The position numbers were made by a program, and so were the translations under genes. The notes under the pieces were generated by a model. The model saw nothing but the letters and a program-made list of their open reading frames with translations, made no database searches and was not told the origin of the DNA. 64,000 bases of DNA from an uncultured Campylobacter sp. Lineage in GTDB: Bacteria; Campylobacterota; Campylobacteria; Campylobacterales; Campylobacteraceae. Positions 1 to 58,065 of the stretch are shown in pieces. Location: positions 1-64,000 of the forward strand of contig CAKVAF010000008.1 of assembly GCA_934718785.1 (NCBI GenBank). The letters are read 5' to 3'. How positions within the stretch are numbered: the stretch's first letter is position 1; every line of letters begins with the position of its first letter.

Positions 1-1384
1 CTCAGCGCTCAATTATGAGATCAACAAGCAAAATATCATCATCGATGAGCTTAAAATTAGAGATGATGAGCTTGAATTTAATGTTTTAGATCCAAATGAT
101 AGCCTTAAAATCGATGCGCTTTTAAAAGAAATTCAAGGGCTTGACATTATTAAATCAAACTCTCATTATACCGTGCGTTTAAGCGCGGCTGAAGTGAAGG
201 CGACTGAGGATTTTGCGCTTTTGCAAGCGGTGGAGACCATTAGAAACCGCTTGGATGAATTTGGCCTTGCTGAGCCTACTGTTGCTAAGCAAGGCGAGGA
301 TAAAATTTTAGTCGAGCTTGCAGGCATTAAAACAAGGGCTGATGAGGATTTGGCTAAAGAGCGTATCACAAAGGCAGCGCATTTGCAGTTAATGGAAATT
401 GATGAAGCTAGAATGGCTATGGCAAATAATTTAAGCGCCGCAAGTGCTGCAAGTTATGGCGATGTGATTTTAGAAGATGCTAAAAACCCTGCTATAAAAT
501 ATGCGCTTAAGGCTATTCCTGTTTTAGACGGAAGCACGCTTACTGATGCGCGCGTTGCCTTTTCTCAAGATCAGAACACGCCTATTATTAATTTTAGTTT
601 AAACTCACAAGGAGCGCGCATTTTTACTGATTATACAGAAAAAAATGTCGGCAAACGCCTTGCTATCGTGCTTGATAATAAGGTCTATTCAGCCCCTAGA
701 ATCAATGAAAGAATTGGCGGGGGAAGTGGGCAAATCAGCGGAAATTTCACGCCTAATGAAGCGCGCGATGTAGCCGTGGCTTTAAGAAGTGGGGCATTAA
801 TCGCTCCTGTAAAGCTGCTTGAACAGCGCAGCATAGGACCATCTCTAGGCAGTGATAGCATAGAAAAATCAATGATAGCTTTAATGGGAGCAAGCATTGC
901 TATCGTGCTTTTTATGATGATATATTATGGTATTGCCGGTGTTTTTGCAAATATCGCTTTAGTGGTCAATATCTTGGTCGTCGTGGCTGTGATGGCTATT
1001 TTTGGAGCGACTTTGACCCTGCCAGGAATGGCCGGACTCGTGCTGACTGTTGGCATGGCAGTGGATGCAAATGTCATCATTAATGAGCGCATAAGAGAGC
1101 TTTTAAGAGAGGGTAAAAGCATTAAAGAAAGCGTAAATAATGGCTATCAGCACGCTATGAGCGCGATTATGGACTCAAACATCACCTCTTTGGTTACTGC
1201 AATCGCTCTTTATGCTTATGGAACAGGAGCTGTAAAAGGCTTTGCCGTAACCACTGGAATTGGCATAGTCGCAAGTATGATTACAGCCATTTGGGGCACG
1301 CACTCACTTTTTGATATGTTTATGGATAAAATGATGAAAAGTGGCAACACAAGGCTTTGGTTTGGTTATAGGAGAAAAATTTAA
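1..1384 (+). CDS. secD: Protein translocase subunit SecD (5' end cut by window)
   Basis: SecD pairs with SecF and SecYEG and uses the proton gradient to help pull secreted proteins across the inner membrane. The reading frame is open from base 2, so the gene begins outside the window. The visible part has the periplasmic P1-like region (AVETIRNRLDEFGLAEP, typical of SecD) and the C-terminal membrane half with several hydrophobic segments, including the conserved GMAVDANVIINERIRE stretch in the fourth-helix region. The stop TAA overlaps the secF ATG by one base (TAATG), so the two are translationally coupled. An internal ATG at 173 is not the start, because the upstream frame also reads as SecD. 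Identification is very secure. Confidence 0.97.
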   Translation, partial: SALNYEINKQNIIIDELKIRDDELEFNVLDPNDSLKIDALLKEIQGLDIIKSNSHYTVRLSAAEVKATEDFALLQAVETIRNRLDEFGLAEPTVAKQGEDKILVELAGIKTRADEDLAKERITKAAHLQLMEIDEARMAMANNLSAASAASYGDVILEDAKNPAIKYALKAIPVLDGSTLTDARVAFSQDQNTPIINFSLNSQGARIFTDYTEKNVGKRLAIVLDNKVYSAPRINERIGGGSGQISGNFTPNEARDVAVALRSGALIAPVKLLEQRSIGPSLGSDSIEKSMIALMGASIAIVLFMMIYYGIAGVFANIALVVNILVVVAVMAIFGATLTLPGMAGLVLTVGMAVDANVIINERIRELLREGKSIKESVNNGYQHAMSAIMDSNITSLVTAIALYAYGTGAVKGFAVTTGIGIVASMITAIWGTHSLFDMFMDKMMKSGNTRLWFGYRRKI

Positions 1385-2355
1385 TGCAGTTTTTTAGCGA
1401 GAAAAAAGTTTATGATTTTATGAAAATGCGCTTTGCTGCTTATGCAGTGAGTGCCTTTTTAGTCGTGGCAAGTGTGTTTTTATTGATTTTTAATGGGCTT
1501 CAATATGGCATTGATTTTAGCGGGGGCACACTTTTACAGCTAAAATATGAAAGCAAAGCGCCCATCGCTGAAATTCGCACAGCCTTAGAAAACGGCGGCG
1601 AGTTTCAAAATTTAAGCGTTACAGAATTTGGCAGCGATGATGAGATTACCATTCGTTTTCTAGGCTCAAATGATAGCGTGAATGAAAATATCGCCACGCA
1701 AATTTCAAGCCTTTTAAAAGATACAGGTAAATTTGAAATCAGGCGCGTGGATGTCGTGGGTCCTAAGGTGGGCGATGAGCTTAAAAATAAGGGCATTATG
1801 GCTATTAGCGTTTCACTTATTGCGATTTTGATTTATATTGCTATTCGCTTTGAGTGGCGTTTTGCTATGGCTGCGATTTTAACGACCATGCACGATGTTT
1901 TAGTTACAATTGGCGCGATTTCTTTACTTAAAATCGATGTGAATTTAGACACGCTCGCAGCGGTTTTAACCGTGCTTGGATACTCTTTAAATGATACGGT
2001 GATTATTTTTGATAGAATTCGTGAGGGCGTAAAAACAAGCAAAAGCACAAATTTAGATAAAATCATTAATGAAAGCGTTTCGGCTACCTTAAGCCGCACC
2101 GTGCTTACTTCTGGGCTTACTTTGGCTACTGTGGTGATTTTATATTTCTTTGGTGGCTCGATGATAGAGGGCTTTTCACTGGCTATGATAGTAGGTATAG
2201 TGGCTGGGACTTTAAGCTCGATTTTTGTGGCAAGTCCGGCTCTTTTGTGGTTTAAATTCAATGTGAGTGATTACAGACAAAAAGAACTTGATAAAATCAA
2301 ACGCAAGCAAGAAAGCCTCAAACAAAGGGCATTATATGAAAAAGGAAGCGTGTAA
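1384..2355 (+). CDS. secF: Protein translocase subunit SecF
   Basis: 323-residue membrane partner of SecD. The first transmembrane helix is at about residues 17-38, followed by the diagnostic GIDFSGGTLLQLKY motif in the first periplasmic domain, then five more hydrophobic segments. The conserved GYSLNDTVIIFDRIRE motif in the fourth-helix region is present. Length is normal for the family. The start ATG shares its A with the secD stop codon, and leuS begins on the base after the secF stop, so secD-secF-leuS look like one transcription unit, as in C. jejuni. Confidence 0.97.
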   Translation: MQFFSEKKVYDFMKMRFAAYAVSAFLVVASVFLLIFNGLQYGIDFSGGTLLQLKYESKAPIAEIRTALENGGEFQNLSVTEFGSDDEITIRFLGSNDSVNENIATQISSLLKDTGKFEIRRVDVVGPKVGDELKNKGIMAISVSLIAILIYIAIRFEWRFAMAAILTTMHDVLVTIGAISLLKIDVNLDTLAAVLTVLGYSLNDTVIIFDRIREGVKTSKSTNLDKIINESVSATLSRTVLTSGLTLATVVILYFFGGSMIEGFSLAMIVGIVAGTLSSIFVASPALLWFKFNVSDYRQKELDKIKRKQESLKQRALYEKGSV

Positions 2356-4854
2356 ATGGGCTATAATGCAAGCGAGATAGAAAAAAAATGGCAAGACATT
2401 TGGGCTGCAAGCGAAGCTTTTGAGCCAAGCAAGGATTATGAAAAGCCTAAGAAATACATACTTTCGATGTTTCCTTATCCAAGCGGGCGCATTCATATGG
2501 GGCATGTGAGAAACTACACTATAGGAGATGCGTTTGCAAGGCATTTTAGAAAGCTTAAATTCAATGTTTTGCACCCTATAGGCTTTGATAGCTTTGGTAT
2601 GCCTGCTGAAAATGCTGCGATTAAAAATAAAGTGCATCCTAGAACTTGGACTTATGAAAATATTGATTATATGACAAAGGAGCTTTTTTCTCTGGGTTTT
2701 AGCTTTTCACGCAAAAAAATTTTAGCCACTTCAGATCCTCTTTATAGTAAATTCGAGCAAGAATTTTTTATCAAAATGTTTGAAAAAGGGCTCATTTATA
2801 CAAAAGACGCTTTGCTTAATTGGTGTGAAAACGATCAAACGGTCTTAGCAAACGAGCAAGTTGAAGAGGGCAAATGCTGGCGGTGTGGTGAAGAAGTGGT
2901 GCAGAAAAAAATGCCCGGTTATTATGTGAAAATCACAAATTATGCTGAAGAATTATTACAAGATCTTAAAAAGCTCGAGGGCAAATGGCCTGCGCAGGTT
3001 TTAACTATGCAAGAAAATTGGATAGGAAAAAGCGTGGGGCTTAGCTTTGTTTTTAATCTTGATGAAGAAAGCGCTAAAAAGGCTGAAGTTAAAGGCTTTG
3101 AGGTTTTTACCACGCGCGCAGATACGATATATGGTATTTCTTATGTGGCGCTGGCTCCTGAGCATGAAATTGTGGCGAATTTAGTTAAAAAAAATCTTTT
3201 AAATGATGAAACAGCGGCGCAAATTAAAAAAATTCAAAATCAAAGCCCAAGACAAAGGCAGATGGATGATAAAGAAGGCTTTTTCTTAGGCATTTACGCA
3301 CTTCATCCACTCACTAAAGAAAAAGTGCCTGTGTGGGTGGCAAATTTCGTGCTGGCTGATTATGCAAGCGCGGCTGTGATGGCTGTGCCTGCGCATGATG
3401 AAAGAGATTTTGAGTTTGCTTTAAAATATGATTTGCCTATTAAAAAAGTGATTGAAGAGCCTGAGAATAAAAAAGAGCAGAACTTAAGCTCAAATGAAAA
3501 TTTAAATTCTCATTTAAAAGAAAATTCAAAGCCTCAAAAAGCCTACACCGAAAAAAAGGGCGTTTTGATTAATAGTGGTGAGTTTAGTGGGCTTGAGTGC
3601 AACGAGGCAAGAAAAATTATCATTGATGATTTTGAGCAAAAAGGCTTAGGCAAGGCTGTGATGAATTACAAGCTAAGGGACTGGGGTGTTTCAAGGCAGC
3701 GTTATTGGGGATGTCCTATTCCTATGGTGCATTGCAAAACTTGCGGCTTAGTGCCTGAAAGACTTGAGAATTTACCTATCACTTTGCCAGATGATATTGA
3801 GATTACAGGCGAGGGCAATCCTTTAGAAAAGCATCCTAGCTGGAAGTTTTGCAAATGCCCTAAATGTGATAAAGAAGCACTTAGAGAAACAGACACTTTA
3901 GATACTTTTTTTGAGAGTTCTTGGTATTATGCGCGTTTTGCAAGCGATGAGGACACTTGGCAAGAGTGCGCGCTTGATAAAAAAAGCACTTCTTACTGGC
4001 TTAGCGTGGATCAATACATTGGCGGAATCGAACATGCGATTTTACATTTACTTTATGCACGCTTTTTTCAAAAGGCTTTAAGGGATTTGGGCTTTTTAAC
4101 ACAAGATGAGCCTTTTTCTCATCTTTTAACGCAAGGTATGGTGCTTAAAGAGGGTGCAAAGATGAGCAAGAGCAAGGGAAATGTAATCGATCCTGATTTT
4201 ATCATACAAAAATATGGTGCTGATACAGCAAGGCTTTTTATTTTATTTGCCGCACCGCCTGCAAAAGAGCTTGAATGGAATGATGACGCGCTTGAGGGAA
4301 GCTACCGGTTTTTATGCAGGCTTTGGGATAGGGCTTTAAAATTAGAGGGCAAAAGTTTGAATAAAATCAATCAAGCCAGCTTAAATAAAGAAGAAAAATA
4401 CGCGCGCCTTAAGGTCTATGAAGCGGCTAAAAAGGCACAAGATGTTTTTGAAAACACCTTTGCTTTCAATACTTTAATCGCTGCTTGTATGGAGGGGCTT
4501 AATGCTATAAGCGTAGCTAAGAATGAAAATTTAGAGCTTGAAGCACTTTTTATCATCTTAAATTTACTTGAGCCTATCGTGCCACACATTGCTTATGAGC
4601 TTTCAAATAGGCTTTTTAAGTGTGAAAATTTCAAAGAAGTAGAGCTTTTAGATGAAGTTTTTATCAAAGATAGCTTTAATATAGGAATCAGCGTAAATGG
4701 CAAAAAAAGGGGCGAGCTGGAGATAGAAGCGAGTTTAAGCAAAGATGAAATTTTGCAAAAAGCTAAACAAGAAGTGGCAAAATGGCTTAAACAAAAAGAG
4801 CTTGTAAAAGAAATTTATATCGATAAAAAGCTTGTGAATTTGGTTGTGAAATAA
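2356..4854 (+). CDS. leuS: Leucyl-tRNA synthetase
   Basis: Class I aminoacyl-tRNA synthetase that charges tRNA-Leu. The HIGH signature appears as HMGH at residues 47-50 and the KMSKS loop at 602-606. The CP1 editing domain is recognisable by its threonine-rich TTRADTIYG and the later [12 protein letters not shown]. At 832 residues it is longer than I expect for Campylobacter LeuRS. The extra length is a hydrophilic Asn/Glu/Lys-rich segment at about residues 368-395 (DNA about 3457-3540), inserted between the editing-domain motif just named and the conserved [16 protein letters not shown]. This is one of several such insertions in the window. It begins on the base after the secF stop. Confidence 0.97.
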
Positions 4855-4863
4855 GGAAAAATA

Positions 4864-5397
4864 ATGCAAAAAATGAAGCTTTTAAGCCTTGAGTTTTTTT
4901 TAAAAACAGGCTTTATTTTTTGTCTTTTAGCCTTTTTAAATGCTTGTGGTTACAAGCCTTTGAGCCAAATTTCAAATAATCTTTTTAGTGATAAAATTTA
5001 TGTTCGTGTTGAAATTTCACAAAGCGATCCTAGAAATAGCGTTTTTGTTGTGGATACTTTAAGAGAAATTTTAATCAATAAGCTAGGCAAAGAGCCTGTG
5101 CTTTATGAAGAAGCAAAGGATTTTATCGATGCTAGGATGAATAGTCTTAGCTTCACGCCTATTGCTTATGATGAAAATGGCTATGTAAGCATTTATAGAG
5201 CAAGGCTTGAACTTGATTTTAGAGTGCGTTTTGAAAATGGCAAAGAAGAGCATTTTAAAACAAGTGGCAATTATGATTTTGTCATCTCGCCAAATAGTAT
5301 CATAAGCGATAGCGCAAGACTTGAGGCCATTCGCGCCGCGTCAAATGAAGCCTTTGATGAGTTTGTTTCCATTTTAGCGATAAAAGGCTTAAAGTGA
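4864..5397 (+). CDS. lptE: LPS-assembly lipoprotein LptE-like
   Basis: 177-residue predicted lipoprotein. The N-terminus has a hydrophobic signal and the lipobox LNAC, with the acylated Cys at residue 28 followed by GYKPL, the usual start of mature LptE/RlpB proteins. LptE is the outer-membrane plug partner of LptD, which inserts lipopolysaccharide or lipooligosaccharide. It lies 9 bases after leuS, as in C. jejuni and many other proteobacteria. Sequence conservation in this family is weak, so the call rests on lipobox, size, GYKP motif and neighbourhood. Confidence 0.82.
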   Translation: MQKMKLLSLEFFLKTGFIFCLLAFLNACGYKPLSQISNNLFSDKIYVRVEISQSDPRNSVFVVDTLREILINKLGKEPVLYEEAKDFIDARMNSLSFTPIAYDENGYVSIYRARLELDFRVRFENGKEEHFKTSGNYDFVISPNSIISDSARLEAIRAASNEAFDEFVSILAIKGLK

Positions 5398-6785
5398 GCA
5401 ATATCAGCGATTTAGCCAAGCAAACTTTGATTTTACTTAATCAAAGAGGGCTTAAACCCACGCCTGAAAACTACACCGAAGTCTTTGAAGAACTTGCTTT
5501 AAAAAAGGGAATGAGTGGCGGCACAAAGCAAAAGATTGATAAGTTTAAAGCCCTTTTGCTGCCTGATTTAAAAGAAGAGCTAAACAGCCGTAAAATTTCA
5601 AATATTGACGAGTTTTTAAGCTTTTTAATCTCTAAAATCAACCGCCAAAGCACGCAAAATGAGCCGCAGTTTTTTGATTTACTCAAGCAAATTTTAAAAG
5701 CACTTTTAATCAGCAAAGATAGAAAAGTCAAGGAAATGGCTTCTAGCTCGCTTTCTCATTTATCGCGCGTGATGGATGATGAGACGCTTTTTTTGCTTGA
5801 GAAAAAATGGGCGAGCTTTAATAAAGACTATGATGATAAAGATTTGGACGCTGAGCTTTTAAAAGTTGGCATAAAAAATGAAGAATTTAGCGTGAGTATA
5901 AAAAAGCTTTTAGCTCAGCTTAAAGCTAGAAGTTATGAGCGCTTTGCCGAGCTTATCGCGCTTTGTTTGGCACCAAGTTTAACGCAAAGTAAAGTCATTG
6001 ATGAGTTTGAAAAAAAGCTTTTGCAAAAGCCCTTTATTATAGCACCTGATGAAAATCAAGACAGTTTTAAAAATGAGCTTTTAAGCATTGTGAATAAGCG
6101 CGTGAATGTGGATAATATGTTTATACAAAAAAATCTTAACTTTTTTGACGCGAATTTGCAAAAATTAAACACGCTTTTAGACACACTTCACAGCATAAGC
6201 CAAAAAAATATTGAGTTTGTAAGCGCTCTTAAAAGTGATGAAAAGGGCGATGTGAGCGTGAGTTTGGCAAGCTTAAAAGAAAAATTTGAGGCTTTAAAAG
6301 AGCGCATTTTAGGCATTGAAGAGCAGGTTAAAATCACGCAAGATTCTAAACTTAGACAAAATTACAGCCTAAAATCTCACATTTTAAAGCTGGATGAAAA
6401 TTTTGTCAATTTCAAAATGAATTACGCGCTGTGCGTTTTTAGCGTGAGTAATTATCGCTTCATTATGGAAAAATACGGCGTTGCGAATTTAAGCGAAATT
6501 TTAGTGCGTTTTAAAAGGATTTTAAAGCAAAATGCTAGTGAGCTGGATGAGCTTTGGTTGCTCGATGAAAAGTCTTATTTGCTCATTTTGCGTGGCAAGG
6601 ATCTTCAGGATATTTTAGATATCATGCAAGATAAAATCGCTAGGATTGAAAATTTTAAGTTCATCTACAAGCAAGAGATTATCACGCCCAAAGTGATCAG
6701 CTTTTTTTTAGACAAACAAACTTATCCGCATTTAAATTTACTCGATGAGATTAAGAAAAGACTCGATGAAGAAGAGCAAGCTTAA
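5394..6785 (+). CDS. Conserved Campylobacter protein with a degenerate GGDEF-like C-terminus
   Basis: 463 residues, no signal peptide and no membrane segment. The start overlaps the lptE stop by four bases (GTGAGC context), so it is co-translated. The N-terminal 30 residues (LLNQRGLKPTPENYTEVFEE) resemble helical N-terminal modules seen in some epsilonproteobacterial GGDEF proteins. The middle is helical and coiled-coil-rich. The last 130 or so residues have the alternating pattern of a nucleotide-cyclase fold (CVFSVSNYRFIMEKYG... LWLLDEKSYLLILRG) but no GG(D/E)EF active-site motif, so cyclase activity is unlikely. Function unknown; the cyclase-fold suggestion is inference from pattern only. 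A syntenic gene stands at this place in C. jejuni. Confidence 0.7.
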   Translation: MSNISDLAKQTLILLNQRGLKPTPENYTEVFEELALKKGMSGGTKQKIDKFKALLLPDLKEELNSRKISNIDEFLSFLISKINRQSTQNEPQFFDLLKQILKALLISKDRKVKEMASSSLSHLSRVMDDETLFLLEKKWASFNKDYDDKDLDAELLKVGIKNEEFSVSIKKLLAQLKARSYERFAELIALCLAPSLTQSKVIDEFEKKLLQKPFIIAPDENQDSFKNELLSIVNKRVNVDNMFIQKNLNFFDANLQKLNTLLDTLHSISQKNIEFVSALKSDEKGDVSVSLASLKEKFEALKERILGIEEQVKITQDSKLRQNYSLKSHILKLDENFVNFKMNYALCVFSVSNYRFIMEKYGVANLSEILVRFKRILKQNASELDELWLLDEKSYLLILRGKDLQDILDIMQDKIARIENFKFIYKQEIITPKVISFFLDKQTYPHLNLLDEIKKRLDEEEQA

Positions 6786-7932
6786 AGCCTTTTTGCAAAG
6801 TCGCGCACTTGAATACAGGGCGATTGATAAATTTCGCGCCTTTAGAATGTATGAAAAATACAAAAAGCATTTTAAATTAAATTACACCATTCAAATCGTG
6901 GGCACCAACGGCAAGGGAAGCACAGGGCGATTTTTAGCGCAAATGCTTGCAAATTTAGGCTTTAATGTAGGCCATTTTAGTAGCCCTCATTTATTTAAAT
7001 TTAATGAAAGATTTTTTTATAAAAAGCGCGTTGCTAAAGATAGCGAGCTAGAAAGCGCACACAGTGAGCTAGAAGCTATTTTAGGCAAGGATTTACAAAA
7101 GCTTAGCTATTTTGAATACGCTACTTTTTTAGCAGCTATTTTATTTAAAAATTGTGATTTTGTGATTTTAGAGGCTGGGCTTGGTGGAGAATACGATGCG
7201 ACTTCAGTGTTTAAAAGAAAATTAAGCGTTTTTACACGCATTGATTTTGATCATACTGAGCTTTTAGGAGATAGCTTAGAAAAAATCGCAAGGACAAAGC
7301 TTAAAACTATGGCTAAAAAAGCTATAATTTCAAGCAAACAAGAAAGCGAAGTTTTAAGCTTAGCGTGCAAAATCGCCCTTTTAAAAAATGTAAATTTAGC
7401 CTTTGATGATGAGCTTTTAAGCTCAAGTTTTAAAAAAGAAATTTCAAATTTTATTAAAAAGAAAAATTATGCAAATTTCTTAGAACAAAATTTAAGTTTA
7501 GCTGTGGCAGCTCTTTTAAAAATTGTGTCTAAAAACGAAGCCTTAAGAGCCTTAAAAAAGCTTGAAAAATTAGATTTAAAAGGACGGCTTGAACAAATTT
7601 CAAAAAATCTCTTCATCGATGTAGGGCATAATGAAAACGCTGCAAGTGCTATTTTAGAGCATTTTAAGGGACAAAAAATCAATCTCATTTACAATTCATT
7701 TTTAGATAAAGATATTTTTCAAATTTTAAGTAAATTAAAGCCTATAATTGATAAAATTATGATTTATGAATATGAGAGCCAAAGAGAATTAGCGGGGCAA
7801 AAAATTGCAGAATTTGCTTTAAAACTAGGCATTGAAAGTGAAAATTTCAAGGGCTTAGAAGCTGGCAAAACACATCTTGTCTTTGGCTCTTTTTTACTTG
7901 TGGAGAATTTTTTAAATCATGGACTTAAGTAA
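6766..7932 (+). CDS. folC: Folylpolyglutamate/dihydrofolate synthase
   Basis: ATP-dependent ligase that adds glutamate to dihydropteroate and folates. The Mur-ligase P-loop VGTNGKGSTGRF is near residue 43, the ILEAGLGGEYDATS motif follows, and the C-terminal domain has the LKGRLEQI...LFIDVGHNENA segment. The start is placed at the ATG at 6766 (MKKSKLKAF); an in-frame ATG seven codons upstream would only lengthen the overlap with the previous gene. Even so the genes overlap by 20 bases. The 3' end overlaps the next gene by 14 bases. Confidence 0.93.
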   Translation: MKKSKLKAFLQSRALEYRAIDKFRAFRMYEKYKKHFKLNYTIQIVGTNGKGSTGRFLAQMLANLGFNVGHFSSPHLFKFNERFFYKKRVAKDSELESAHSELEAILGKDLQKLSYFEYATFLAAILFKNCDFVILEAGLGGEYDATSVFKRKLSVFTRIDFDHTELLGDSLEKIARTKLKTMAKKAIISSKQESEVLSLACKIALLKNVNLAFDDELLSSSFKKEISNFIKKKNYANFLEQNLSLAVAALLKIVSKNEALRALKKLEKLDLKGRLEQISKNLFIDVGHNENAASAILEHFKGQKINLIYNSFLDKDIFQILSKLKPIIDKIMIYEYESQRELAGQKIAEFALKLGIESENFKGLEAGKTHLVFGSFLLVENFLNHGLK

Positions 7933-9168: not shown

Positions 9169-12100
9169 TGCAAGCAAGGCTTTTTGAGTTTTTACAAAGT
9201 GGAGCAAGCTGTGAGCTTTTGCTTTGTGAAGATGATAAAGAAGCCTTAAATTTAGCTGAAGTGGCTAAATTTATGGGCTTTACGCCCTTTGTTTTGCCTG
9301 ATTTTAGAGCTGAGCTTAATGAGGATTTAAAGCCCTATTCAAAGGAGCTTTTCAAACTTTGTGCTGTGCTGAGTGCTTATCATAATGAAGCTCAAGAAGC
9401 TTTAGAGCTTGAAAATAGCAAAGAATTCAAGCCCAGTTTTGCTAAAGAACATCTCAAAACAGCGGCTCAAGTCAATTTAAATGAAAATTTAAACACGGAT
9501 GAAATTTTAAATCAAAACTTAAACTCAAATAAAAATGTAAAATCTAGCAAAAAACTTCTCATAAGCCCTATAAGAACAGCACTTCATAAATTGCCAAGCA
9601 AAGAAAATTTAAAAAATCTCAGGCTAGATTTAGGACAAAAGCTTGATTTAAAAGCTCTTAAAGACAGCCTTTTAAGAATGGGTTATAATTTTGTAGATAT
9701 GGTGCAAGATAAGGGCGAAGTAAGCTTTAGAGGCGATATAATGGACATTTTTGCCATCAATACTCAAGCTCCTTTTAGAATTTTATTTTTTGATGATGAG
9801 ATTGAAAGTATAAGAGTTTTTGATATAAATACTCAAAGATCTATTAAAGAAGAGCTAAAAAGCATTTTTATCTGCCCTTTTTTAGCCTTTTTAAATGAAA
9901 GATCTTATGAAAACTTACAAGAAAAGCTAGCTTCAAACACGCAAATTTTAATCAGCGATATAAACTCACAAGGCTTTTGGTGTATGAATGACTTTTTTGA
10001 TTATCTAAGCCTTGATTTTAGGGCGATTAAAAGCTTTGATGAAAGAGAAATTGATAAAAATTTAAGCTTTATTAATGCTAAAGTTTTGCCAGAGGCTAGA
10101 AATTACAAAGATTTAAATAGCTCTTATTCACAGGATTTTTTCTCTTTTCATAAGGATAAAAAAATTATCATTTTAGCTAGAAACGAAGCTTTATTAAAAC
10201 AAAAAAATATTGATTTAAAAGAGCTTGGTGCAAGTTTTTTAAATGAAAATGATTTAAATTTAAATGAAATTTTAAATACAAATTTAAACTCTATAAATTC
10301 AAATATCTTTTTTATTCAAAGTGAGCTTTATTTAAATTTAATCAGCTCTAAGCTCATCATTTGCTCTTTTAATAGCCTTAAAAAGACTAAAATTAGAAAT
10401 AAAAAGCCCAGCCTCTTGATTGACGAGCTTAAAAAGTGTGATTTTGTAAGCCATGAAGATTATGGAGTGGGTAAGTTTTTAGGGCTTGAGAGTATTAAAA
10501 TTGCTGGGGCGCAAAAAGAATTTATATCTCTTTTATATCAAAACAATGACAAGCTTTTGCTGCCTGTTGAAAATCTTTATTTAATAGATAAATTTATAGG
10601 CACAAATGCCGTGCCAGTGCTTGATAAGCTAGGTAAAACAAGCTTTTTAAAACTTAAAGCGCGTTTAAAAGAAAAGCTTTTAGCCCTAGCTAATGAGCTT
10701 ATTCAAATGGCAGCTGCTAGGGCTTTAATAATGCCTAAAAAACTTGTTGTTGATGAGGTGCTTCAGCAAAGTTTTATTCAAAGTGCGCCTTTTGAATACA
10801 CTAAGGATCAAGAAAAAAGCGTGAGAGAAATTTTAAGTGATTTTAAAAGTTCTCATGTTATGGATAGGCTTTTAAGTGGGGATGTGGGCTTTGGTAAGAC
10901 TGAAGTGGCGATGAATGCGCTTTTATGCGTGCTTAAAAATAATTTTACCGCCTTTTTCTTCGTGCCTACCACGCTTTTATGTCAACAACATTTCAAAAGC
11001 CTTAAAGCGCGCTTAAGTGCCTTTGATATAGAAATTTTTAGGCTAGATAGATTTACAAATACTAAAGATAAAAAGCTTATTTTAGAGTATTTAAAGACAA
11101 ATAAGCCTTGTGTTGTTGTAGGAACTCACTCTCTTTTAAGCATTAAGTGTGAAAATTTAGCCCTTGTCATTATAGATGAAGAGCATAAATTTGGTGTCAA
11201 GCAAAAGGAGAAATTAAAAGAATTTAGCAAAGAAGCTCATATTTTATCAATGTCTGCAACGCCTATTCCAAGAAGTTTAAATCAAGCCTTAAGTAAGATT
11301 AAAACTTACAGCGTTTTAAGCACTCCACCAAGTGAAAGACTAGATGTCAGAAGCTTTGTAAAGGAAAATGATGAAGCCTTGATTAAAGAAGCGATTTTAA
11401 GAGAGCTTAGGCGCGGGGGGCAAATTTTTTACATTCACAATCACATAGCAAGTATTCAAAGCTGTGCTAAAATGCTTAAAGAGCTTGTGCCAAGCCTTAG
11501 AATTCTCATTTTGCATTCAAAGATTGAGAGCAAAAGTGCTGAAGAAGAAATGCTTAAATTTGAAGATAAACAATACGACCTGCTTTTAAGCACGAGCATA
11601 GTAGAAAGTGGCATTGATTTGCCTAATGCAAATACTATTATAATAGAAAATGCGCATAAATTTGGAATGGCTGATTTACACCAGCTGCGCGGGCGAGTAG
11701 GGCGTAGCGATAGGCAAGCTTATTGTTATTTTTTAATTCCTGATAAAAACGCACTGAGCGAAGAAGCGTTAAAGCGCCTTGTAAGCCTTGAGAGCAATTC
11801 ATTTTTAGGTGCTGGAAGCATTTTGGCAATGCACGATCTTGAAATTCGTGGCGGGGGAAATTTACTTGGCGTTGATCAAAGCGGTCATATAGAGCAAATT
11901 GGCTACGCACTTTATTTAAAAATGCTTGAAGATGCCTTAAATGAGCTTTCAAAGCAGAATAAAGAAGCGCAAAACTGCGAGCTGAAATTAAATGTAAGTG
12001 CTTTTTTAAATAGTGATTTAATTGCTGAGGACAATTTACGCCTTGAGCTTTATAAAAGGCTGAGTAAGTGTGAGAGCGTGAATGAAGTTTATGAGATAGA

Positions 12101-17106: not shown

Positions 17107-17895
17107 ATGAAAAATCTTTGCATTATCCCAGCGCGCGGCGGTTCAAAGCGCATTAAGCATAAAAATATCATTGATTTTTGTGGTAAGCCCTTGATTGCTA
17201 GAAGCATTGAAAATGCGCTAAATTCTGGCATTTTTGATGAGGTGATGATAAGCAGCGATGATGAGAAAATCATCGAAGTGGCTTTAAGTTGTGGCGCAAG
17301 CTCGCCTATAAAGCGTCCTAGCGAGCTAAGCGATGATTTTAGTAGTTCAAGCGAGGTTGTTAAATTTATGATAAAAGAGCTTGAAAAAAGGGGCTTAAAA
17401 TATGATAGCGTGTGCTGTTTATACGCGACTGCGCCTTTAATATCAGCTGAAATTTTAAAACAAGCCTTTGAAAGCTTTAAAAAAAGTGCTTTTAAAAACG
17501 AAGTTTTAACTAAAAATTCAAATGAAAATTCAAAGCAAAAAAATAAAAATGTGAATGAAAATTTAAAAACAAATTTAAATGAAGAATGCGAGTTTTTATT
17601 TGCCGCAACTGCTTTTGATTATCCCATACAAAGAGCTTTTGGGCTACTTGATGATGATAGAGTGAGCATGTTTGATGAGAGTAAATATTATGCGCGCAGT
17701 CAGGATTTAACGCCTGCATATCACGATGCTGGGGCGTTTTATTTTGGTAAAAGTAGGGCTTGGTTTGAAAAGGATTTTATGTTTAAGCCCTATGCAAAGG
17801 CGTTTTTACTGCCTAGACACTTAGTTTGTGATATAGACACGCAAGAAGATTTGGAATTTGCTAAGAAGCTTTTTATGATAAATAAAGGAAAATGA
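17107..17895 (+). CDS. pseF: Pseudaminic acid cytidylyltransferase PseF
   Basis: Activates pseudaminic acid with CTP for flagellin glycosylation. The CMP-sialate-synthetase-type motif IIPARGGSKRIKHKN is at residues 6-20 and the later MISSDDEKI, ARSQDLTPAYHDAGAFYF and CDIDTQEDL motifs are intact. 262 residues is about 30 more than I expect. The excess is an Asn/Lys-rich stretch at about residues 130-160 (KNSNENSKQ, NENLKTNLNEE), next to a variable loop rather than in a motif. It starts a cassette in which pseG and pseH follow only after three other genes. The next gene begins on the base after its stop. Confidence 0.93.
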   Translation: MKNLCIIPARGGSKRIKHKNIIDFCGKPLIARSIENALNSGIFDEVMISSDDEKIIEVALSCGASSPIKRPSELSDDFSSSSEVVKFMIKELEKRGLKYDSVCCLYATAPLISAEILKQAFESFKKSAFKNEVLTKNSNENSKQKNKNVNENLKTNLNEECEFLFAATAFDYPIQRAFGLLDDDRVSMFDESKYYARSQDLTPAYHDAGAFYFGKSRAWFEKDFMFKPYAKAFLLPRHLVCDIDTQEDLEFAKKLFMINKGK

Positions 17896-22937: not shown

Positions 22938-23346
22938 CTTTTATCCTTTGTTTTAAATTAAGCTTTCGCTTGCAAGCATTATATAAAAGGATAAATAACC
23001 AAATGTAAATTGTAAAAATTTTAAATTCTTTAAAAATCCCCAAACCCTACGCTTGATTTGAGATTTAAATTTAACTTCGAAATATAAAATAAACTCTAAA
23101 ACAGTGGCGCGAGATTTGAAAATTTAAATTTGAATGTAAAATGAATTGTTTGATTTTGCATCCTGTAATGATTTAACAATCGCGCTATTTTGAGAAAAGT
23201 TGCTAGATTTAGGGGCAATTTTAATTTTACATTAAAAAAATAAATTGCCAAGTAAAGAATGTCTTGTTTGGATTTTTTAAACGCTCGCAATGACCTACTT
23301 ACAAGCGTGAGTTTATCATTGCGAGTTTGTGTAGCAATTTCAAAGA
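22938..23346. repeat. Intergenic region with dispersed repeats A and B
   Basis: 409 bases between tpx and the next minus-strand gene. After the tpx promoter it holds a copy of repeat A at 23098-23113 (AAAACAGTGGCGCGAG, one mismatch from consensus) and a B-type palindromic segment at 23282-23340 (CTCGCAATGACC ... TCATTGCGAG ... GTAGCAATTT). A weaker B-like piece is at 23156-23185. No gene is seen; short open frames here are repeat sequence. Confidence 0.7.
22978..22983 (-). promoter_or_regulatory. Probable -10 box for tpx
   Basis: TATAAT on the minus strand, about 40 bases before the tpx start codon, followed by a GCTTGCAAGC palindrome in the untranslated leader. AAAGGAT serves as ribosome site. 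Confidence 0.6.
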
Positions 23347-23775: not shown

Positions 23776-24138
23776 TTTTTCTCCTTTTTGAATTGAATTG
23801 GTGAAATTGTAGAATAGTTTTGTGAATTGAATGTGAAGTTTTAAAAAATAATTGAATTTTTGTTTATCTTTTGCTTTTATAAAATTTAAAATACTATGAA
23901 TTGTCAAAATATTAATTTACTCTCAAATAAAATTACAATAAAACAAATCTAAAGCCCACTCGAACCTGATTGAAATTTTAAAAATCACAAAACAGCACCG
24001 CAAGTTTTAAAATTATACTTTCATAATAAATTTTAAGAAAAATTAAGATAAAATAAACGCGGTTTTAAATCTTTGAGAATTTATATTTTGGATGAAATTT
24101 ATGGGATTTAAGCTAGTTTTAAGATTTATTTAAGGCAA
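23776..24138. other. Non-coding gap between divergent genes
   Basis: 363 AT-rich bases upstream of both the PepSY-like gene and psd. It holds a diverged repeat A (23989-24004, AAAACAGCACCGCAAG, three mismatches). I see no gene and no clear promoter for psd. Confidence 0.55.
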
Positions 24139-25152
24139 ATGATGACATTCTCAAATTTCATTTCAAGGCTTTTTGGTGGCGTGGCGAGTGCGCGTTTGCC
24201 GAGTTTTTTACAGCGCTTTATCAATGCGTGGTATGTGAGATATTTTAAGATTGATTTAAGCGAATTTGGGCCTTTAGAGCATTATGAGAGCTTAAATGCA
24301 CTTTTTACGCGCAAATTAACGCGTCAAAGAGCGCTTGAGTCTGGCTTTATCAGCCCAAGCGATGGCAAGATTTTAGAGTGTGGCGCAAGCAGCGAGCTTG
24401 GTGATGAGCAAGTAGCACTCAGCATTAAAGGCTTCACATATAGCATTGATGAGCTTTTAGGTGGTGCTTTAAAGCAAGATATGGCAAGCTTTGAATATGG
24501 AAAAAAATCTCAAGATGAAATCAATTTAAAAAGCGTTGCAAATAATGAAAAGGTGAATAACTTAAAAAACAGCGGCGCGAGTTTTGAAAATCAAGGCGCA
24601 AGTGATGAAAGTGGAACACAAAGTAGTAAAAAGCGCGAGAAAATATGCTTTGAGTATGTGAATATTTATCTTTCGCCACGCGATTATCATCGCTATCACT
24701 GCCCTGTGAATATGCGCGTTAAAGCTGCTTTTTACATCAGCGGTGCGCTTAAAAGCGTGAGTGAAAAAAGTCTTGAAAAAGTGGCTAATTTGTATGCTAG
24801 AAACGAACGTTTCGTGCTAGAATGCGAGACTTTAGATAGGATTTTAAACGACAATTTAGAAAAAAGCGAGCAAAAAAATGCTTCAAAGCGCTTTTTTATG
24901 GTCTTTGTTGGTGCTTTAAATGTCGGTAAAATGTGTTTTAATTTTGATAAAAAATTGCAAAAAAAAGCGTACCTCGGGGCTAATTTTTCAAAATTTTATG
25001 ATAAAATAGAGCTTAAAAAAGGCGATGAGCTGGGGCATTTTGAGCTGGGTTCGACCATTGTGCTTTTGTTTAAAAAAAATGATTTTAAACTTTGCGTAAA
25101 GCCTTATGAAAGCGTGAAATTTGGGCAGCAAATTGCCGAGATTTTAAAGTGA
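24139..25152 (+). CDS. psd: Phosphatidylserine decarboxylase with repeat-derived insertion
   Basis: Makes phosphatidylethanolamine from phosphatidylserine at the inner membrane. Conserved blocks include FFTRKL-like NALFTRKLTRQR, ISPSDGKILE, the histidine-bearing YLSPRDYHRYHCPV, and the self-cleavage site LGST (Ser305, source of the pyruvoyl group) 33 residues from the end. At 337 residues it is well above the roughly 270 I expect. The excess is at about residues 113-168, between two core blocks, and is rich in Ser, Asn, Lys and Gln. An exact copy of the intergenic 16-bp repeat A lies inside it (24566-24581) and encodes KNSGAS. The insertion keeps the frame, and both catalytic regions are intact, so the enzyme is probably active. 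Confidence 0.93.
   Translation: MMTFSNFISRLFGGVASARLPSFLQRFINAWYVRYFKIDLSEFGPLEHYESLNALFTRKLTRQRALESGFISPSDGKILECGASSELGDEQVALSIKGFTYSIDELLGGALKQDMASFEYGKKSQDEINLKSVANNEKVNNLKNSGASFENQGASDESGTQSSKKREKICFEYVNIYLSPRDYHRYHCPVNMRVKAAFYISGALKSVSEKSLEKVANLYARNERFVLECETLDRILNDNLEKSEQKNASKRFFMVFVGALNVGKMCFNFDKKLQKKAYLGANFSKFYDKIELKKGDELGHFELGSTIVLLFKKNDFKLCVKPYESVKFGQQIAEILK
24566..24581 (+). repeat. Exact repeat A copy inside psd
   Basis: AAAACAGCGGCGCGAG, identical to the intergenic copies at 26022 and 46735, read in frame within the extra segment of Psd. The flank (TTTTGAAAAT) resembles flanks of other copies, such as 31313 onward. Confidence 0.85.
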
Positions 25153-25934: not shown

Positions 25935-26021
25935 CGGGAGTTTTAAGATTTGTTTGTGAGTTTGGGATAATTTAAATAGAATTTAGGATAAATTTTAAAA
26001 TAATATTGTGGAATAAATTTC

Positions 26022-26227
26022 AAAACAGCGGCGCGAGTTTAAATTTAGTGTCATCGCAAAGCCTTTAGGCTGAAGCAATCCATACTTTAATTTTACAAAA
26101 TTCAAATTTTTTCTCATATAAATTTATGGATTGCCACGCATTTGCTGACGCAAATTCTCGCAATGACAAACTATTAAATTTATCGCATATTTTCTTGCAA
26201 AGCCCCAAAACTTCGCGCCGCTGTTTT
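26022..26227. repeat. Composite inverted-repeat element A-B-B'-A' (type copy)
   Basis: Repeat A (26022-26037) and its reverse complement (26213-26227) form the ends of a 206-bp unit. Inside are two B-type palindromic repeats in opposite orientation: 26050-26084 (GTCATCGCAAAG ... GAAGCAATCCATA) and 26127-26166 (ATGGATTGCCACG ... TCGCAATGACA). The 35-bp segment 26050-26084 recurs inverted at 59529-59563 with two mismatches. No coding capacity. The layout is like that of a non-autonomous palindromic element (MITE-like); no target duplication is obvious. Confidence 0.75.
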
Positions 26228-26351
26228 ATAATTTTGCATTTAAAATTTTATGAAATTTCGTAATCTGTGCTTTGTCATTGATTTTTTGTTACGCATTTAC
26301 TTTATATTTTGATTTTTCTTTATTTTTATGCGAATTTATGCAAATTTTGGT

Positions 26352-27763: not shown

Positions 27764-28307
27764 GCCTTAGCGTAGCGTTATTTTGATGTAGCGTTACTTT
27801 TCAAGGGAGTGTGGAGCGGGTCTAGTAATCTTGGATTAAACTCAAGTCGCGTTTGACTTGAGTTTAAATAAATTCACGTGTAGGTTTAAATTTCTAATCT
27901 TAAAATTTTTGATTTTTAAAATTCTTAAAAGCTTTCAAAATTGAATAAAACTTTCAAAATTTAAAATCACAAAACAGCGGCGCGAAGTTTAAATTTATTA
28001 TCAAGAGCCAGCTTGTTGACAGCGCAGCAATATATAAATTTTTAAAAAAAACTTAAAAACTTGTGTCATTGCAAGTGAGGTTTTATAATGGGCTGAATTT
28101 ATCATTGCGAGCGTTACTTACAACGCATGGCAATCCACAAATTTTTATGAAAATCAAAAAATTGACTTCTTAGTCTTTTAAAATTTATAAATTTAAGTTC
28201 TTACAAGTTTTAAAAATTTTAATTTTTTTTATTTAAATCTTAAATTTTGTGAAATTTAAATTTTTTAATTTATAAAAATTTCAATTTTAAAAAATCATTT
28301 TTCTATC
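27764..28307. repeat. Intergenic region with repeats A and B
   Basis: AT-rich gap after the chemoreceptor. It holds repeat A at 27971-27987 (AAAACAGCGGCGCGAAG) and B-type palindromic repeats from about 28066 to 28144. The 44-bp segment 28101-28144 matches 57034-57077 with five differences. No opposing A copy is seen, so the element is incomplete or decayed. No gene seen. Confidence 0.7.
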
Positions 28308-30205: not shown

Positions 30206-31296
30206 AAAATTCCTTAAAAATTAAAATAAATAAATTCGCTATAATTATCCCCAAGCATTGCCACTAAAGCTAGTGCAAACAAAAGTGCCATCAAAAAAGC
30301 AAAGCTTAAGCTAGGCTTAAAGCTCTCTAGCTTTTGCCACGAGTTTTTAAATCCAAGCACGATGATAAAAGAAATGATAAGAAAATACAAAAAGGCATTA
30401 TCGCCATCAATAGCGGCAAAAAGCTCTTTTGTGCGCCAAAACTTTTGTGGCAACTCTATCCAGGTGTTTAGCGCAAACATTGATTTAATAATACTTAAGG
30501 CAGAATTCACACTTTCAGCACGAAAGAAAATCCAAGCTAAATTCACAAAATTAAAACACAAAAACCACGCGCAAAAATGATAAAATTTAGAGTGCAAAAA
30601 TCCTAAATTTAGGCCCTTAGAACTTAAAAATTCTAAGAAAAACTTATAAATTCGGCAAATTACAAGAGCCATACCATGTAAAATGCCCCAAATCACAAAG
30701 CCCCAGCCAGCCCCATGCCAAATACCACTTAAAAAGCGACGATGAAAAGATTACGCAAATTAAGCCACTTGCCTGAGCGGTTTGAGCCCAGTGGGATATA
30801 AAGATAAGCTTTTAAAAAGCGCCCCAAGGTAATGTGCCAGCACCGCCAAAACTCAGCGATATTGCGCGCTTTATAAGGCGAGTTAAAATTAAGCGGTAAA
30901 ACAATGCCAAATAAAAGCGCCAAGCCAATTACCATATCACAATATGCGCTAAAATCAAAATAAATTTGAAAAGTATAGCTAAGACTCGTCGCCCAAGCTT
31001 CTGCAATGCTTAGCACTTCGCCCTTTAAAGTCGCGTCAAAGCTAAGACTTGCGTGCTTTGCAAAAGTATCTGCGATGATTGTTTTTTTAAAAAGCCCAAT
31101 GATAAAGATAAAAACGCCTTTTGCAAACTTATCCCAAGCAATGAAGCGCGCATTTTTCGAGTTTGCAAATTGAGGCATCATTTCTTTATGATGGACTATA
31201 GGACCTGCGATGAGTTGTGGAAAAAAGCTGATAAAAAGACAATAATCTAAAAAGTCAATGCGGACTGAGCTTTTAAATTTAGACTGAGAAATTTCT

Positions 31297-31312
31297 AAAA
31301 CAGCGGCGCGGG
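31297..31312 (+). repeat. Repeat A copy inside the MBOAT gene
   Basis: AAAACAGCGGCGCGGG on the plus strand, one mismatch from consensus; the gene is on the minus strand, so it is read as TRAAVLE. It lies in the family-atypical segment between the IDTYKG and FLDYCLFISFFPQLIAGP motifs. Confidence 0.75.
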
Positions 31313-31593
31313 TTTTGAAGTTTTTATCTAAATTTTGACTAGGATTAAGTTCTTCTAAATCCCTTAAATCAACGCCTTTGTAAGTATCTATTAAAAAGGC
31401 GATTTGCTGAAAGGTAAAAAATGAAATCCCCAGTGGCAAGATGATATGAGGTAAGGGCACATTAAAATCTAAATTTAAAAGCTTTGTAAAAAGATTGAAA
31501 TTTTCTAAGAAAAAATCTGTATATTTGAAAAAGCCTAAAAGAAGCAGGTTAAAAAGGACGCCAAGGATAATTAAAGGCTTATTGAGTTTTAAG

Positions 31594-31603
31594 CCCCCCC
31601 CCC
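31594..31603 (-). repeat. Homopolymeric G10 tract in the MBOAT gene (phase OFF)
   Basis: C10 on the plus strand. The current length runs into TAA right after the tract (DRGGGA, stop); 8 or 11 G would connect to the frame encoding KLNKPLIILGV and the rest of the enzyme. Confidence 0.85.
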
Positions 31604-31904
31604 TCTGTCATTTATATTTGAGCTTAAAAGCTTGATTGAAGCTAGGTTTTGAAGCATTTTTGAAGCGATGAAATAATTGATTAAAATTGAAAAAAGCAGC
31701 AAAAACACAAGTTTTGGCTCAAAAAAGCCATAAAAATAAAAGCTGGCTAAAACAAGAAAAATTTTAGCGGCGATGAATCTTTTAAAATATTTTAAAAGAT
31801 AAAAAAACCACAAGTGTTATAGGTAAAAATGCAAAAACAAAAATCGCTGAATTAAAGAGCATGAAAATCCTTATGGCTTAAATTTAAATTGATTTAAGCT
31901 TTGA

Positions 31905-37377: not shown

Positions 37378-37416
37378 AAAACCGCTGCCGATGATTTTAA
37401 ATTTTAAATGCGGCAG
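37378..37416. repeat. Repeat A2 copy with hairpin
   Basis: AAAACCGCTGCCGATGATTT at 37378-37397. A reverse-complement relative lies at 52984-53003 with one mismatch. Here CTGCCG (37385-37390) pairs with CGGCAG (37411-37416), so it may also serve as a transcription terminator between pyrH and rpoZ. The CCGCTG core is the reverse complement of the CAGCGG in repeat A. Confidence 0.5.
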
Positions 37417-42194: not shown

Positions 42195-44164
42195 TGCTTT
42201 TTAGGCTCTTTTGTTTCTTTTTACTTTTTTTTAGCCTTGCTTTTGCAGCCTACGAAAAGGAGCTTAGTCGCTTTGATAGCACTTTTACAAGCAGCAAGGA
42301 TAAGCAAAGTCTTTATTTAGAGCTTAAGAATTTTTATATACAAAGCATTATCAATGAAGATGAAAAGAGTAAAATAGAGCTTTTAAAAAGGCTAGTAATA
42401 GGTGCAAATGCGCTAAATTTAGACAGTAGTGAGTATGAAAAAGAGCTTAAAAATGCTGGCTTTAAAGATGAATATATTCAAAGTTTAAAAAACGCTTATA
42501 AAAAAGATAGCGAGCAAGATTTTTTAAAAAAGCAAGAATATGATGAAGCTAAAAACTCAAATAATCAAAAAAAAGAAAATGAAAAAATCACGCAAAAACC
42601 CTTTGTTTTAAAGGCTAGCAAGCTTGAAAATGGGGTGAAATTAAGCTTAAATTTTAATTTAAACAAAAAAGATATCAAAAAAAGCATACTCAAGCAAAAA
42701 GATAATGTGCGCTACATTTTTGACTTTAACGCAGCCCTTGATACAGGGGCTTTAAGCTTTAAATTTAAAGATTTTTTTATCAATATCGCCCAGTTTAATC
42801 CCAAAATCACGCGCTTAGTCATCAATGCAAAAGAAGAAAGTGCTTATAATTTAAAGCTTGAAGATAAAAGCCTTATTTTAATCTTTGATGAGAATTTAAA
42901 AGAAGCAAAAAACCCCAGCATACAAAATAAAGAAAACTTAAAAGAAACAAAAAATTCAAACACTTTAAAAGAAAATCAAAAAAGCACACAAGAAAGCTTA
43001 AAAGAAAATTCACAAACAAATTCAAAAGAAAATTTAGAAAAAAACTCGACAAATTCTACTAAAAAACTTTATATTTTATCAAGCAAATCAAGTGAAATGG
43101 GAGTTGTTTTAAGCTTAAATAGAGATTTAGACGAAGATGAACTAAAAATAGTAAGCTTTAAGGATAAAAATCTTTATAGAAAAATTTTAAGCTTTGAGGG
43201 CGTTTTAGAAGGGGGACGCAAAAACTTCACCCTAAATAAAAAGTTCATCACCCTAACTCAATACACGCCAAAAATCGTTCGTGTGGTGCTTTCAAGCCCT
43301 GATGATTTTGAACTTTTTAAGGATTTAGAGAATAAAAGAGCCTTTTTTGGCTTTGAAAAAAGCTCAAATTTAAGCTCAAAAAATCAAACAAATTCTAGTA
43401 AAAATACAAAAGCAGCGCAAAACACTACAAAAACTAGCTCAAAAAGCACACAAAAAAGTGCGCAAAGACCTGCAAATTTAGCCAAAAATAAAATCATCGT
43501 CATAGACGCAGGGCACGGCGGCAAGGATGTGGGCGCGATAAATGGCAAGCTTTATGAAAAAAATATAGTTTTAAATGTGAGCTTAAAGCTAGGAAAAGAG
43601 CTTGAAAGGCTAGGCTACAAGGTCTTTTACACGAGAAATAAGGATAAGTTTATCAATCTTAGAGACAGGACTAAGCTAGCTAATGATAAGAAAGCAAATC
43701 TTTTTATCTCCATTCACGCCAATGCTGCTCCAAACAAGGCTAAGGCTGATTCTATGCAAGGAGTTGAAACCTTTTTCTTAAGTCCAGCTAGAAGTGAGCG
43801 CAGCAAACAAGTGGCTGAAAAGGAAAATCAGGCTGATTTTGAAGAAGCAAATTTTTTCTTAAAGCAAAATTTTCTCTCAGCTCTAAGCCGTGAAAAAATC
43901 ATCGCTTCAAACCGCCTTGCCATAGACATTCAAAAGAATTTGCTTGAATCTGTGCGTAAAAGATATAAAGTAATAGACGGAGCCGTTAGAGAAGCACCTT
44001 TTTGGGTGCTAGTAGGCGCGCAAGATATGCCAGCCGTGCTTATAGAAATAGGCTATATCACGCATCCTGAAGAAAGCAAAAGACTTGCTAATAATATTTA
44101 TCAGCAGCTTTTAGCCGAGGGTATAGCAAATGGGGTGCAAAATTATTTTATCAATAATCCATAA
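42194..44164 (+). CDS. amiA: N-acetylmuramoyl-L-alanine amidase AmiA
   Basis: 656 residues: signal peptide (1-19), an N-terminal helical region, two AMIN-like beta domains (about 135-230 and 292-385), then a zinc amidase_3 domain (about 430-655). Catalytic residues are in [30 protein letters not shown] and [14 protein letters not shown]. It cleaves the peptide stem from glycan strands during daughter-cell separation. Two low-complexity linkers rich in Asn, Ser, Lys and Thr separate the domains (about 233-291 and 389-429). The EnvC-like activator and FtsEX are encoded 6-8 kb upstream in the same direction. Confidence 0.94.
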
Positions 44165-46734: not shown

Positions 46735-46750
46735 AAAACAGCGGCGCGAG
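46735..46750 (+). repeat. Solo repeat A
   Basis: AAAACAGCGGCGCGAG, exact consensus, alone between hup and cysM with no B repeat beside it. An AT-rich inverted repeat (AATAAGTTTTAAA / TTTAAACTTATT) follows at about 46759-46790. Confidence 0.75.
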
Positions 46751-50940: not shown

Positions 50941-51067
50941 AAAACAGCGGCACGAGTTTTTTAATCCAATTATTACGAGCGCTAGCAAAGCAATTTATAT
51001 TAAATAGCAAAGATAAAAAATGCCTTGCCACGACAAAACTTTGTTTTGTCTTGCAAAGATAAATTTT
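50941..51067. repeat. Repeat A plus B-type repeats
   Basis: Repeat A at 50941-50956 (AAAACAGCGGCACGAG, one mismatch) followed by a B unit at 50971-51000 (TATTACGAGCGCTAGCAAAG...), which matches 63121-63150 with five differences. A degenerate palindrome follows at about 51020-51060 (GACAAAACTTTGTTTTGTC). Lies between the convergent genes alr and mnmA. Confidence 0.7.
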
Positions 51068-56358: not shown

Positions 56359-56382
56359 AGCGCTTTTAAGCTCTAAATTTCA

Positions 56383-56859: not shown

Positions 56860-56878
56860 AATTTCTTTAAATCAATTT

Positions 56879-57203: not shown

Positions 57204-57212
57204 TTAAATTGA

Positions 57213-58031: not shown

Positions 58032-58065
58032 TTTTTCTCCTTGATTAAATTCTAGCTCAAAAGGC

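Follow-up and report, generated by a model that had tools for sequence, protein, structure and literature searches.

The closest described precedent for a repeat that occupies both spacers and reading frames is the Rickettsia palindromic elements (RPEs), which are 105-146 bp long, carry terminal inverted repeats, form long stem-loops and occupy 19 genes in frame, one enzyme having been tested (PMC2229807). In-frame repeats in conserved enzymes are documented for Rickettsia, and reports are cited for Wolbachia and others (PMC2229807). In a 64-kb stretch of Campylobacter DNA (the window), we characterized a short repeat that the first-pass annotation had likened to RPEs. The likeness holds for the outcome, in-frame coding copies: as with RPEs (PMC2229807), a spacer repeat also lies in frame in protein genes, here in two firm copies, one of which sits in a gene that is broken, and homologous genes of relatives have an empty site, the exceptions (P0002, G069, G076 and G077) carrying other sequence. 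It does not extend to the anatomy. Whereas RPEs have a unit of 105-146 bp with a palindromic stem-loop (PMC2229807), about 40 bp is shared here (further in some pairs of copies) and the core stretch folds no better than shuffles. Because hairpin folding and unit length both differ, we do not class the repeat as an RPE.

MITEs and other small mobile repeats (Correia/NEMIS, RUP, ERIC) are likewise short, located in spacers and in some cases arranged as facing inverted pairs (PMC2229807). Unlike MITEs, the present repeat has no fixed length and no proven target duplication, and no partner transposase was found among 23 scanned proteins; MITE-type terminal inverted repeats are approached by two facing core pairs, the remaining copies being single. 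With the DNA uptake sequences known from Pasteurellaceae and Neisseriaceae, the repeat has in common a conserved motif with many copies in spacers and coding DNA (PMC2346458). Among the matches listed from the open-access literature, titles and abstract openings report no Campylobacter repeat of such kind. Unlike uptake sequences, the core is tied to palindromes, has flank variants restricted to subsets of copies and is longer.

The core is a 16-mer, AAAACAGCGGCGCGAG, and its five exact copies were all found at the positions and on the strands given in the first-pass annotation: 24566(+), 26022(+), 46735(+), 57188-57203(-) and 59650-59665(-). That list lacked six one-mismatch copies, at 23098, 26212-26227(-), 27971, 31297, 50941 and 63009, and two with two mismatches, at 9456 and 56879. 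The resulting 13 sites at up to two mismatches (10 in spacers, 3 in genes; about one per 5 kb over the 64 kb) compare with a mean of 0.08 and a maximum of 1 in 100 shuffles, which rules out a chance origin of the excess. The annotation had regarded its reading as lost should the 16-mer be no commoner genome-wide than chance; within the window, 13 copies stand against 0.08. Relaxing the search to three mismatches yielded two further sites, at 3208 in leuS and at 23989 in a spacer.

Conservation extends over about 40 bp, with a GC-rich stretch of 16-20 bp set in AT-rich sequence on both sides; in most copies the flanks read roughly AAATT.[CT] 5' of the core and TTTT.A 3' of it. A 36-bp profile was trained on 11 spacer copies alone, with no coding copy, and scored these at 35-47; the simulated maximum was 13.7 (6 windows). 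Genic sites scored 39.6 (psd), 42.0 (31297), 24.7 (leuS 3208) and 16.6 (mfd 9456). When the core was left out and flanks alone were scored against random coding positions and random spacer positions, the psd copy (P = 0.00035 and 0.003, respectively) and the copy at 31297 in an MBOAT gene (P = 0.00045 and 0.004) remained distinctive; leuS 3208 gave P = 0.004 and 0.02, and the mfd copy was not significant (P = 0.15 and 0.33). Spacer copies, each left out in turn, had flank scores ranging from -13.4 to 13.6, so that flanks are non-uniform even among spacer copies.

The psd gene (24139-25152, + strand) encodes a phosphatidylserine decarboxylase of 337 aa that matches PF02666 (E = 2.8e-44) and NF003038 (313 bits, cut-off 285). 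The exact core at 24566-24581(+), recovered by search, profile and flanks, lies in frame as the first-pass annotation reported; its codons, (A)AA AAC AGC GGC GCG AGT, read N-S-G-A-S, and a tandem-like NSGASFE/NQGASDE is present at the core. The annotation also described a segment of about 55 residues that Psd homologues lack. Pairwise alignment to Campylobacter sp. MIT 99-7217 (G109), the genome most alike among those listed (MBOAT, 83%; larger part of Mfd, 74%), gives 50 residues without counterpart (24481-24630, +), and a multiple alignment of 32 chosen proteins places the extra segment between ...ELL and FEYVNIYLSP. That the 50-residue segment as a whole is the repeat is not supported, since the shared sequence spans about 40 bp. 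At the segment's edge lies the left copy, GCTTTGAATATG (24488-24499, +), of a 12-bp near-direct repeat whose right copy, GCTTTGAGTATG (24647-24658, +), differs by one mismatch and lies 159 bp downstream. Its score of 9 falls between the 95% and 99% points of the null (8 and 11; P between 0.01 and 0.05), and a target duplication is possible.

A search with a C. gracilis-type Psd (P0089) located psd in 146 of the 153 genomes of the family. The compact Psd (265-273 aa) of C. jejuni, C. coli, C. lari and others are without the segment, and the loop was short at 32 of the 36 loci where it was read directly (L059 could not be parsed, and L006 and L066 are one and the same gene). Longer loops of unrelated sequence occur at L044 (G069), L048 (G077) and L050 (G076), the latter two with some 25-30 additional residues at the same place. 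A Psd 57% identical to the window protein (P0003) has a nearly short loop, and one from a metagenome relative (P0002, 62% identical) has about 31 added residues of other sequence. Furthermore, of the 120 proteins listed, many are Psd of the C. gracilis type, 300-356 aa long and with their own insert at the loop. The empty site that the first-pass annotation proposed to look for is present in the compact proteins and at the 32 short loci, and is filled with other sequence in P0002, G069, G076 and G077. Since P0002 and C. gracilis-type Psd bear inserts of their own, the alignments indicate that more than one lineage has acquired sequence at this loop position. The C. gracilis-type insert was considered as a parallel case, a 14-mer of its DNA being present 12 times in G069 versus 2 for the reversed control; because the 12 flanks share no longer sequence by eye, we took this as word usage.

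An AlphaFold2 model of P0001 (336 aa; numbering is that of the open reading frame minus 1) had a mean pLDDT of 82.5. Within the segment it predicts a helix at 109-139; the stretch after it is of low confidence, and pLDDT falls below 50 at residues 143-153, which include most of the core-encoded part. The best solved structural matches are E. coli PSD (TM 0.54 by query and about 0.7 (0.73) by target, rmsd 7.3 A). The strand after the loop leads to the catalytic His motif known from E. coli PSD. The psd gene is essential in E. coli. Because the model shows this loop as disordered, and it is open to sequence in several lineages, we infer that the enzyme tolerates the core-bearing loop. Assembly error is argued against by the P0001 protein cluster, whose 8 member sequences span 132 contigs.

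The second firm coding copy (31297-31312, +; one mismatch; supported by profile and flanks) lies antisense to a DltB/MBOAT gene, in whose frame it reads T-R-A-A-V. The surrounding 25 residues (31275-31349, - strand), without counterpart in relatives by alignment to MIT 99-7217, are missing at all 24 readable loci of 30. The listed MBOAT homologues that have an N-terminal piece stop at query residue 32-39 and restart at 57-67; G014 is without the second piece. The gene (30729-31816) has several frame breaks and is probably a dead pseudogene, and its copy is for that reason uninformative on tolerance.

A weaker core-like site in mfd (9456-9471, +; two mismatches; scored by profile and flanks) reads K-T-A-A-Q and lies in an Asn/Leu-rich segment of 51 residues (9387-9539, +). 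Alignments place this segment as absent from MIT 99-7217 and from 13 homologues shown of 24 aligned, an examination that leaves out the Mfd frames of G012 (1044 aa) and G070 (1029 aa). At the same place in Mfd, a sister-lineage protein (P0122) has a different Asn/Leu-rich segment. We downgraded mfd as a firm third coding case, since its flanks are unmatched and P0122 carries other sequence there; the site may be a coincidence. Because P0002 in psd and P0122 in mfd bear other sequence at the same places, loop expansion may have preceded arrival of the repeat. The three-mismatch site at leuS 3208 is not at an insertion, and its score of 24.7 exceeds the simulated 13.7.

Thus, psd and MBOAT hold coding copies with spacer-type flanks, mfd a weak third, and all lie in segments that relatives lack. 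Relative to MIT 99-7217, this is true of 3 of 3 coding cores at up to two mismatches and of 3 of 4 when leuS 3208 is counted. The comparison covered 51 window frames, taken stop to stop and hand-chosen among MIT 99-7217 matches after overlapping or hitless frames were dropped, at about 47-92% identity. It gave 24 window-only segments of at least 6 residues, together 464 of 15,869 aligned residues (2.9%), at least 4 of which (6739, 18558, 48681 and 59736) are at frame starts and may precede the true start codon. By simple product, the probability of all coding cores falling in window-only segments is about 2.5e-5 for three and 8.5e-4 for the two firm copies. Segments present only in MIT 99-7217 numbered five (351 residues), of which 267 + 67 residues come from a broken or window-end-cut frame and the rest measure 6, 6 and 7. 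Many window-only segments abound in Asn, Lys, Ser and Leu (3460-3519, 10218-10295, 17479-17574, 42887-42961, 49916-50059 and others) and occur in LeuS, Mfd, alanine racemase and other proteins. With 24 segments in one direction and 5 in the other, two of the latter being frame artefacts, the lineage seems, from these alignments, to expand protein loops in general.

The frame in which the core is read differs among the coding copies, as does the strand; it is therefore DNA and not peptide that is shared, and a peptide motif is ruled out (N-S-G-A-S, T-R-A-A-V, K-T-A-A-Q). The extra segments measure 75 bp in MBOAT, 150 bp in psd, 153 bp in mfd and about 160 bp in the spacer at the HU gene; the inserted unit therefore varies in size. 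In each of them the core is nearly central, within 1 bp in mfd, about 8 in MBOAT, about 12 in the HU spacer and about 6-18 in psd, where the value depends on which edge is taken; the edges are approximate. No clear target duplication was found at mfd or MBOAT, the psd repeat being the sole notable one at core-bearing gene segments.

Single spacer copies located by core search are at 23098-23113(+; one mismatch), 46735-46750(+; exact; between the gene for HU and the one after it) and 50941-50956(+; one mismatch; downstream of alr). The copy at 23989-24004(+; three mismatches), upstream of psd, has a profile score of 39.3 and belongs to the training set. Core and palindrome searches together identified copies accompanied by palindromes at 27971-27986(+; one mismatch; palindromes downstream), 59650-59665(-; exact) and 63009-63024(+; one mismatch). 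Two composites contain facing cores: 26015-26234, in which 26022(+) and 26227(-) enclose GTCATTGCGAG/GCAATCCATA palindromes (arms of 22 nt, 91% complementary), and 56852-57232, in which 56879(+) and 57203(-) enclose palindromes (arms of 46 nt, 72%, and 31 nt, 77% complementary). End to end, the cores within these facing inverted pairs are 206 and 325 bp apart, and the other spacer copies are single.

Cores occupy 9 of 25 spacers longer than 120 bp. Repeats like GTCATTGCGAG or GCAATCCATA are present in 6 of the 9 core-bearing spacers versus 0 of the 16 core-less ones (Fisher P = 0.0005; P = 0.002 among spacers of at least 200 bp), at a loose threshold that gave 11 hits outside the listed spacers and with hand-set gene/spacer limits. 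At the threshold used, no palindrome match was found in the psd or MBOAT segment, nor in the core-bearing spacers of 23989, 46735 and 50941. We take the GTCATTGCGAG...GCAATCCA palindromes to resemble REP/BIME-like palindromic mosaics. Unlike REP/BIME, the core stretch forms no stable hairpin and is uncommon in palindrome-rich genomes.

In the HU spacer, the distance from a terminator-like hairpin to a leader block, both common to MIT 99-7217, is 199 nt here versus 39 nt there, and the core sits inside the additional stretch, downstream of the separate hairpin. Folding of single core stretches covered 10 sequences of 40-41 nt, from 8 spacer copies, psd and MBOAT (the last on both strands, making 11 folds); z-scores were -0.88 to 1.22, with no stable hairpin. 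A stable RNA hairpin or terminator accordingly gains no support, the terminator-like hairpin near HU being separate; as to known RNA families, the window holds only a tRNA-Leu.

Pairs of spacer copies were alike in their flanks (P < 0.01) in 11 of 55 cases, the likeness in places reaching 28-55 nt from the core (26022 and 59665 are alike over 55 nt upstream), and pairs of psd or MBOAT with spacer copies in 3 of 22; part of this signal comes from positions belonging to the common flank motif, which the test counts. Copies 23989, 27971 and 63009 form a subset with AAAATCAC or AAATCAC in the flank, and 46735 and 59665 are alike over 29 nt upstream. These subsets speak for copies descended from one another rather than for repeated independent origins.

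A second GC-rich island, AAATCATC.GCAGCGGTTTT, was seen in spacers at 37378-37397, 52984-53003 and, more loosely, 59350-59369. It is built alike, with a GC core between A and T runs, and the one at 59350 faces core 59665. In addition, gene order differs at 55489-61199, where a block with genes 57213-59297 parts genes that are neighbours in MIT 99-7217. The first gene of the block is without a match in that genome, and both edges of the block are core-bearing spacers. The repeats may mark rearrangement points.

In the genomes searched, the core is scarce. Its inner 10-mer, AAACAGCGGC, occurs 14 times in the 64-kb window versus 0 times in 1.53 Mb of MIT 99-7217. Of 153 Campylobacteraceae genomes, 13 had the 16-mer at up to one mismatch, none more than 4 times, and of 398 Campylobacterales genomes, 17 had a 19-mer form at up to two mismatches, none more than twice; neither of these partly overlapping sets contained a genome enriched in the core. 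Given these counts, and within the genomes searched, the repeat is private to this Campylobacter lineage. Eighteen viral contigs with a single exact 16-mer each were taken as chance matches. The GTCATTGCGAG...GCAATCCA palindromes, searched as an exact gapped pattern, occurred in 27 of 153 Campylobacteraceae genomes (546 in G145, 208 in G138 and 0 in MIT 99-7217). Such palindromes, their loops varying, are highly abundant in some Campylobacteraceae, among them G145, G138, G149, G072, G076, G077 and G123, and most other genomes are without the exact pattern.

Collectively, we consider it fairly probable that the core is part of a short interspersed repeat whose enrichment, in the genomes searched, is confined to this Campylobacter lineage and which has spread by DNA-level copying. 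Copying of some 40-60 bp or more would spread the repeat, often together with palindromic repeats, and the repeat would likely be non-autonomous, moved by an enzyme encoded elsewhere. Copies would survive mostly in spacers, and in genes where the frame is kept and the loop is unimportant. One copy is envisaged to have entered the Psd loop just before the strand toward the catalytic His motif, keeping the frame and bringing no stop, with the enzyme presumably tolerating it. The first-pass annotation had proposed that this Campylobacter has its own mobile or spreading repeat. Abundance far above chance, psd flanks like those of spacer copies and a second coding copy agree with that proposal; as to a mover, scanning of 23 window proteins, a subset of those encoded, with Pfam or NCBIfam disclosed no transposase or other candidate. 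Counting against an interspersed repeat are this negative scan, the unequal segment sizes, the borderline score of the psd direct repeat, the other sequence of P0002 and P0122 at the psd and mfd places, the non-uniform flanks and leuS 3208 in a non-inserted place, and all copy statistics derive from one 64-kb window with small n.

A different account makes the core a DNA motif under selection or drive, for example an uptake sequence or protein-binding site. Here the psd loop would have grown first and the site evolved inside it, copies arising by mutation and being kept through use in spacers and tolerant protein segments. Uptake sequences typically have frequent copies, a conserved core, AT-rich flanks and no fixed element length. 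The density of about one copy per 5 kb, the conserved core, the AT-rich flanks and the variable element length all suit such a motif, as do the differing loop sequences that sister lineages have at both sites, P0002 in psd and P0122 in mfd, and the leuS near-match in a normal, non-inserted place. We nevertheless judge it unlikely, for flank variants common to subsets of copies are needless for a functional site, the core is tied to palindromes, and known uptake sequences are shorter than this motif. A bolder form of this account makes the core a sequence for uptake or self-recognition, the first of its kind beyond Pasteurellaceae and Neisseriaceae, which arose since the split from MIT 99-7217 and colonised tolerant loop insertions of Psd and other proteins; we regard it as a long shot. 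Uptake sequences are not known beyond those two families, and none is known in Campylobacter, in which self-DNA recognition is generally attributed to methylation.

The inverted pairs at 26015-26234 and 56852-57232, which enclose palindromes, raise the prospect that the core is the outer arm of a larger palindromic composite and that the psd and MBOAT copies are remnants left by deletion or partial copying. This appears improbable, given that the psd and MBOAT segments and the spacers of 23989, 46735 and 50941 are without palindrome matches, and that the core is uncommon in the 27 of 153 genomes with the palindromes. Finally, the psd segment might be a loop expanded in low-complexity sequence, its 16-mer being a coincidence or peptide-level likeness. 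The 24 window segments of at least 6 residues absent from MIT 99-7217, many with a high content of Asn, Lys, Ser and Leu, and the tandem-like NSGASFE/NQGASDE speak for this, but it is highly improbable for an exact 16-mer that shuffles yield 0.08 times even at two mismatches, whose flanks match spacer copies too and whose remaining coding copies are in other frames and on the other strand.

An interspersed repeat copied at the DNA level remains our preferred reading. Repeat DNA as part of a protein is a rare case, seen here in the floppy loop of a lipid-making enzyme. If true, a repeat confined to one Campylobacter lineage would let one ask how repeat DNA enters genes, and it would bear on the order in which loop and repeat appeared and on the limits of an essential membrane enzyme. 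For Campylobacter, the core also provides a definite candidate for a motif of the uptake type.
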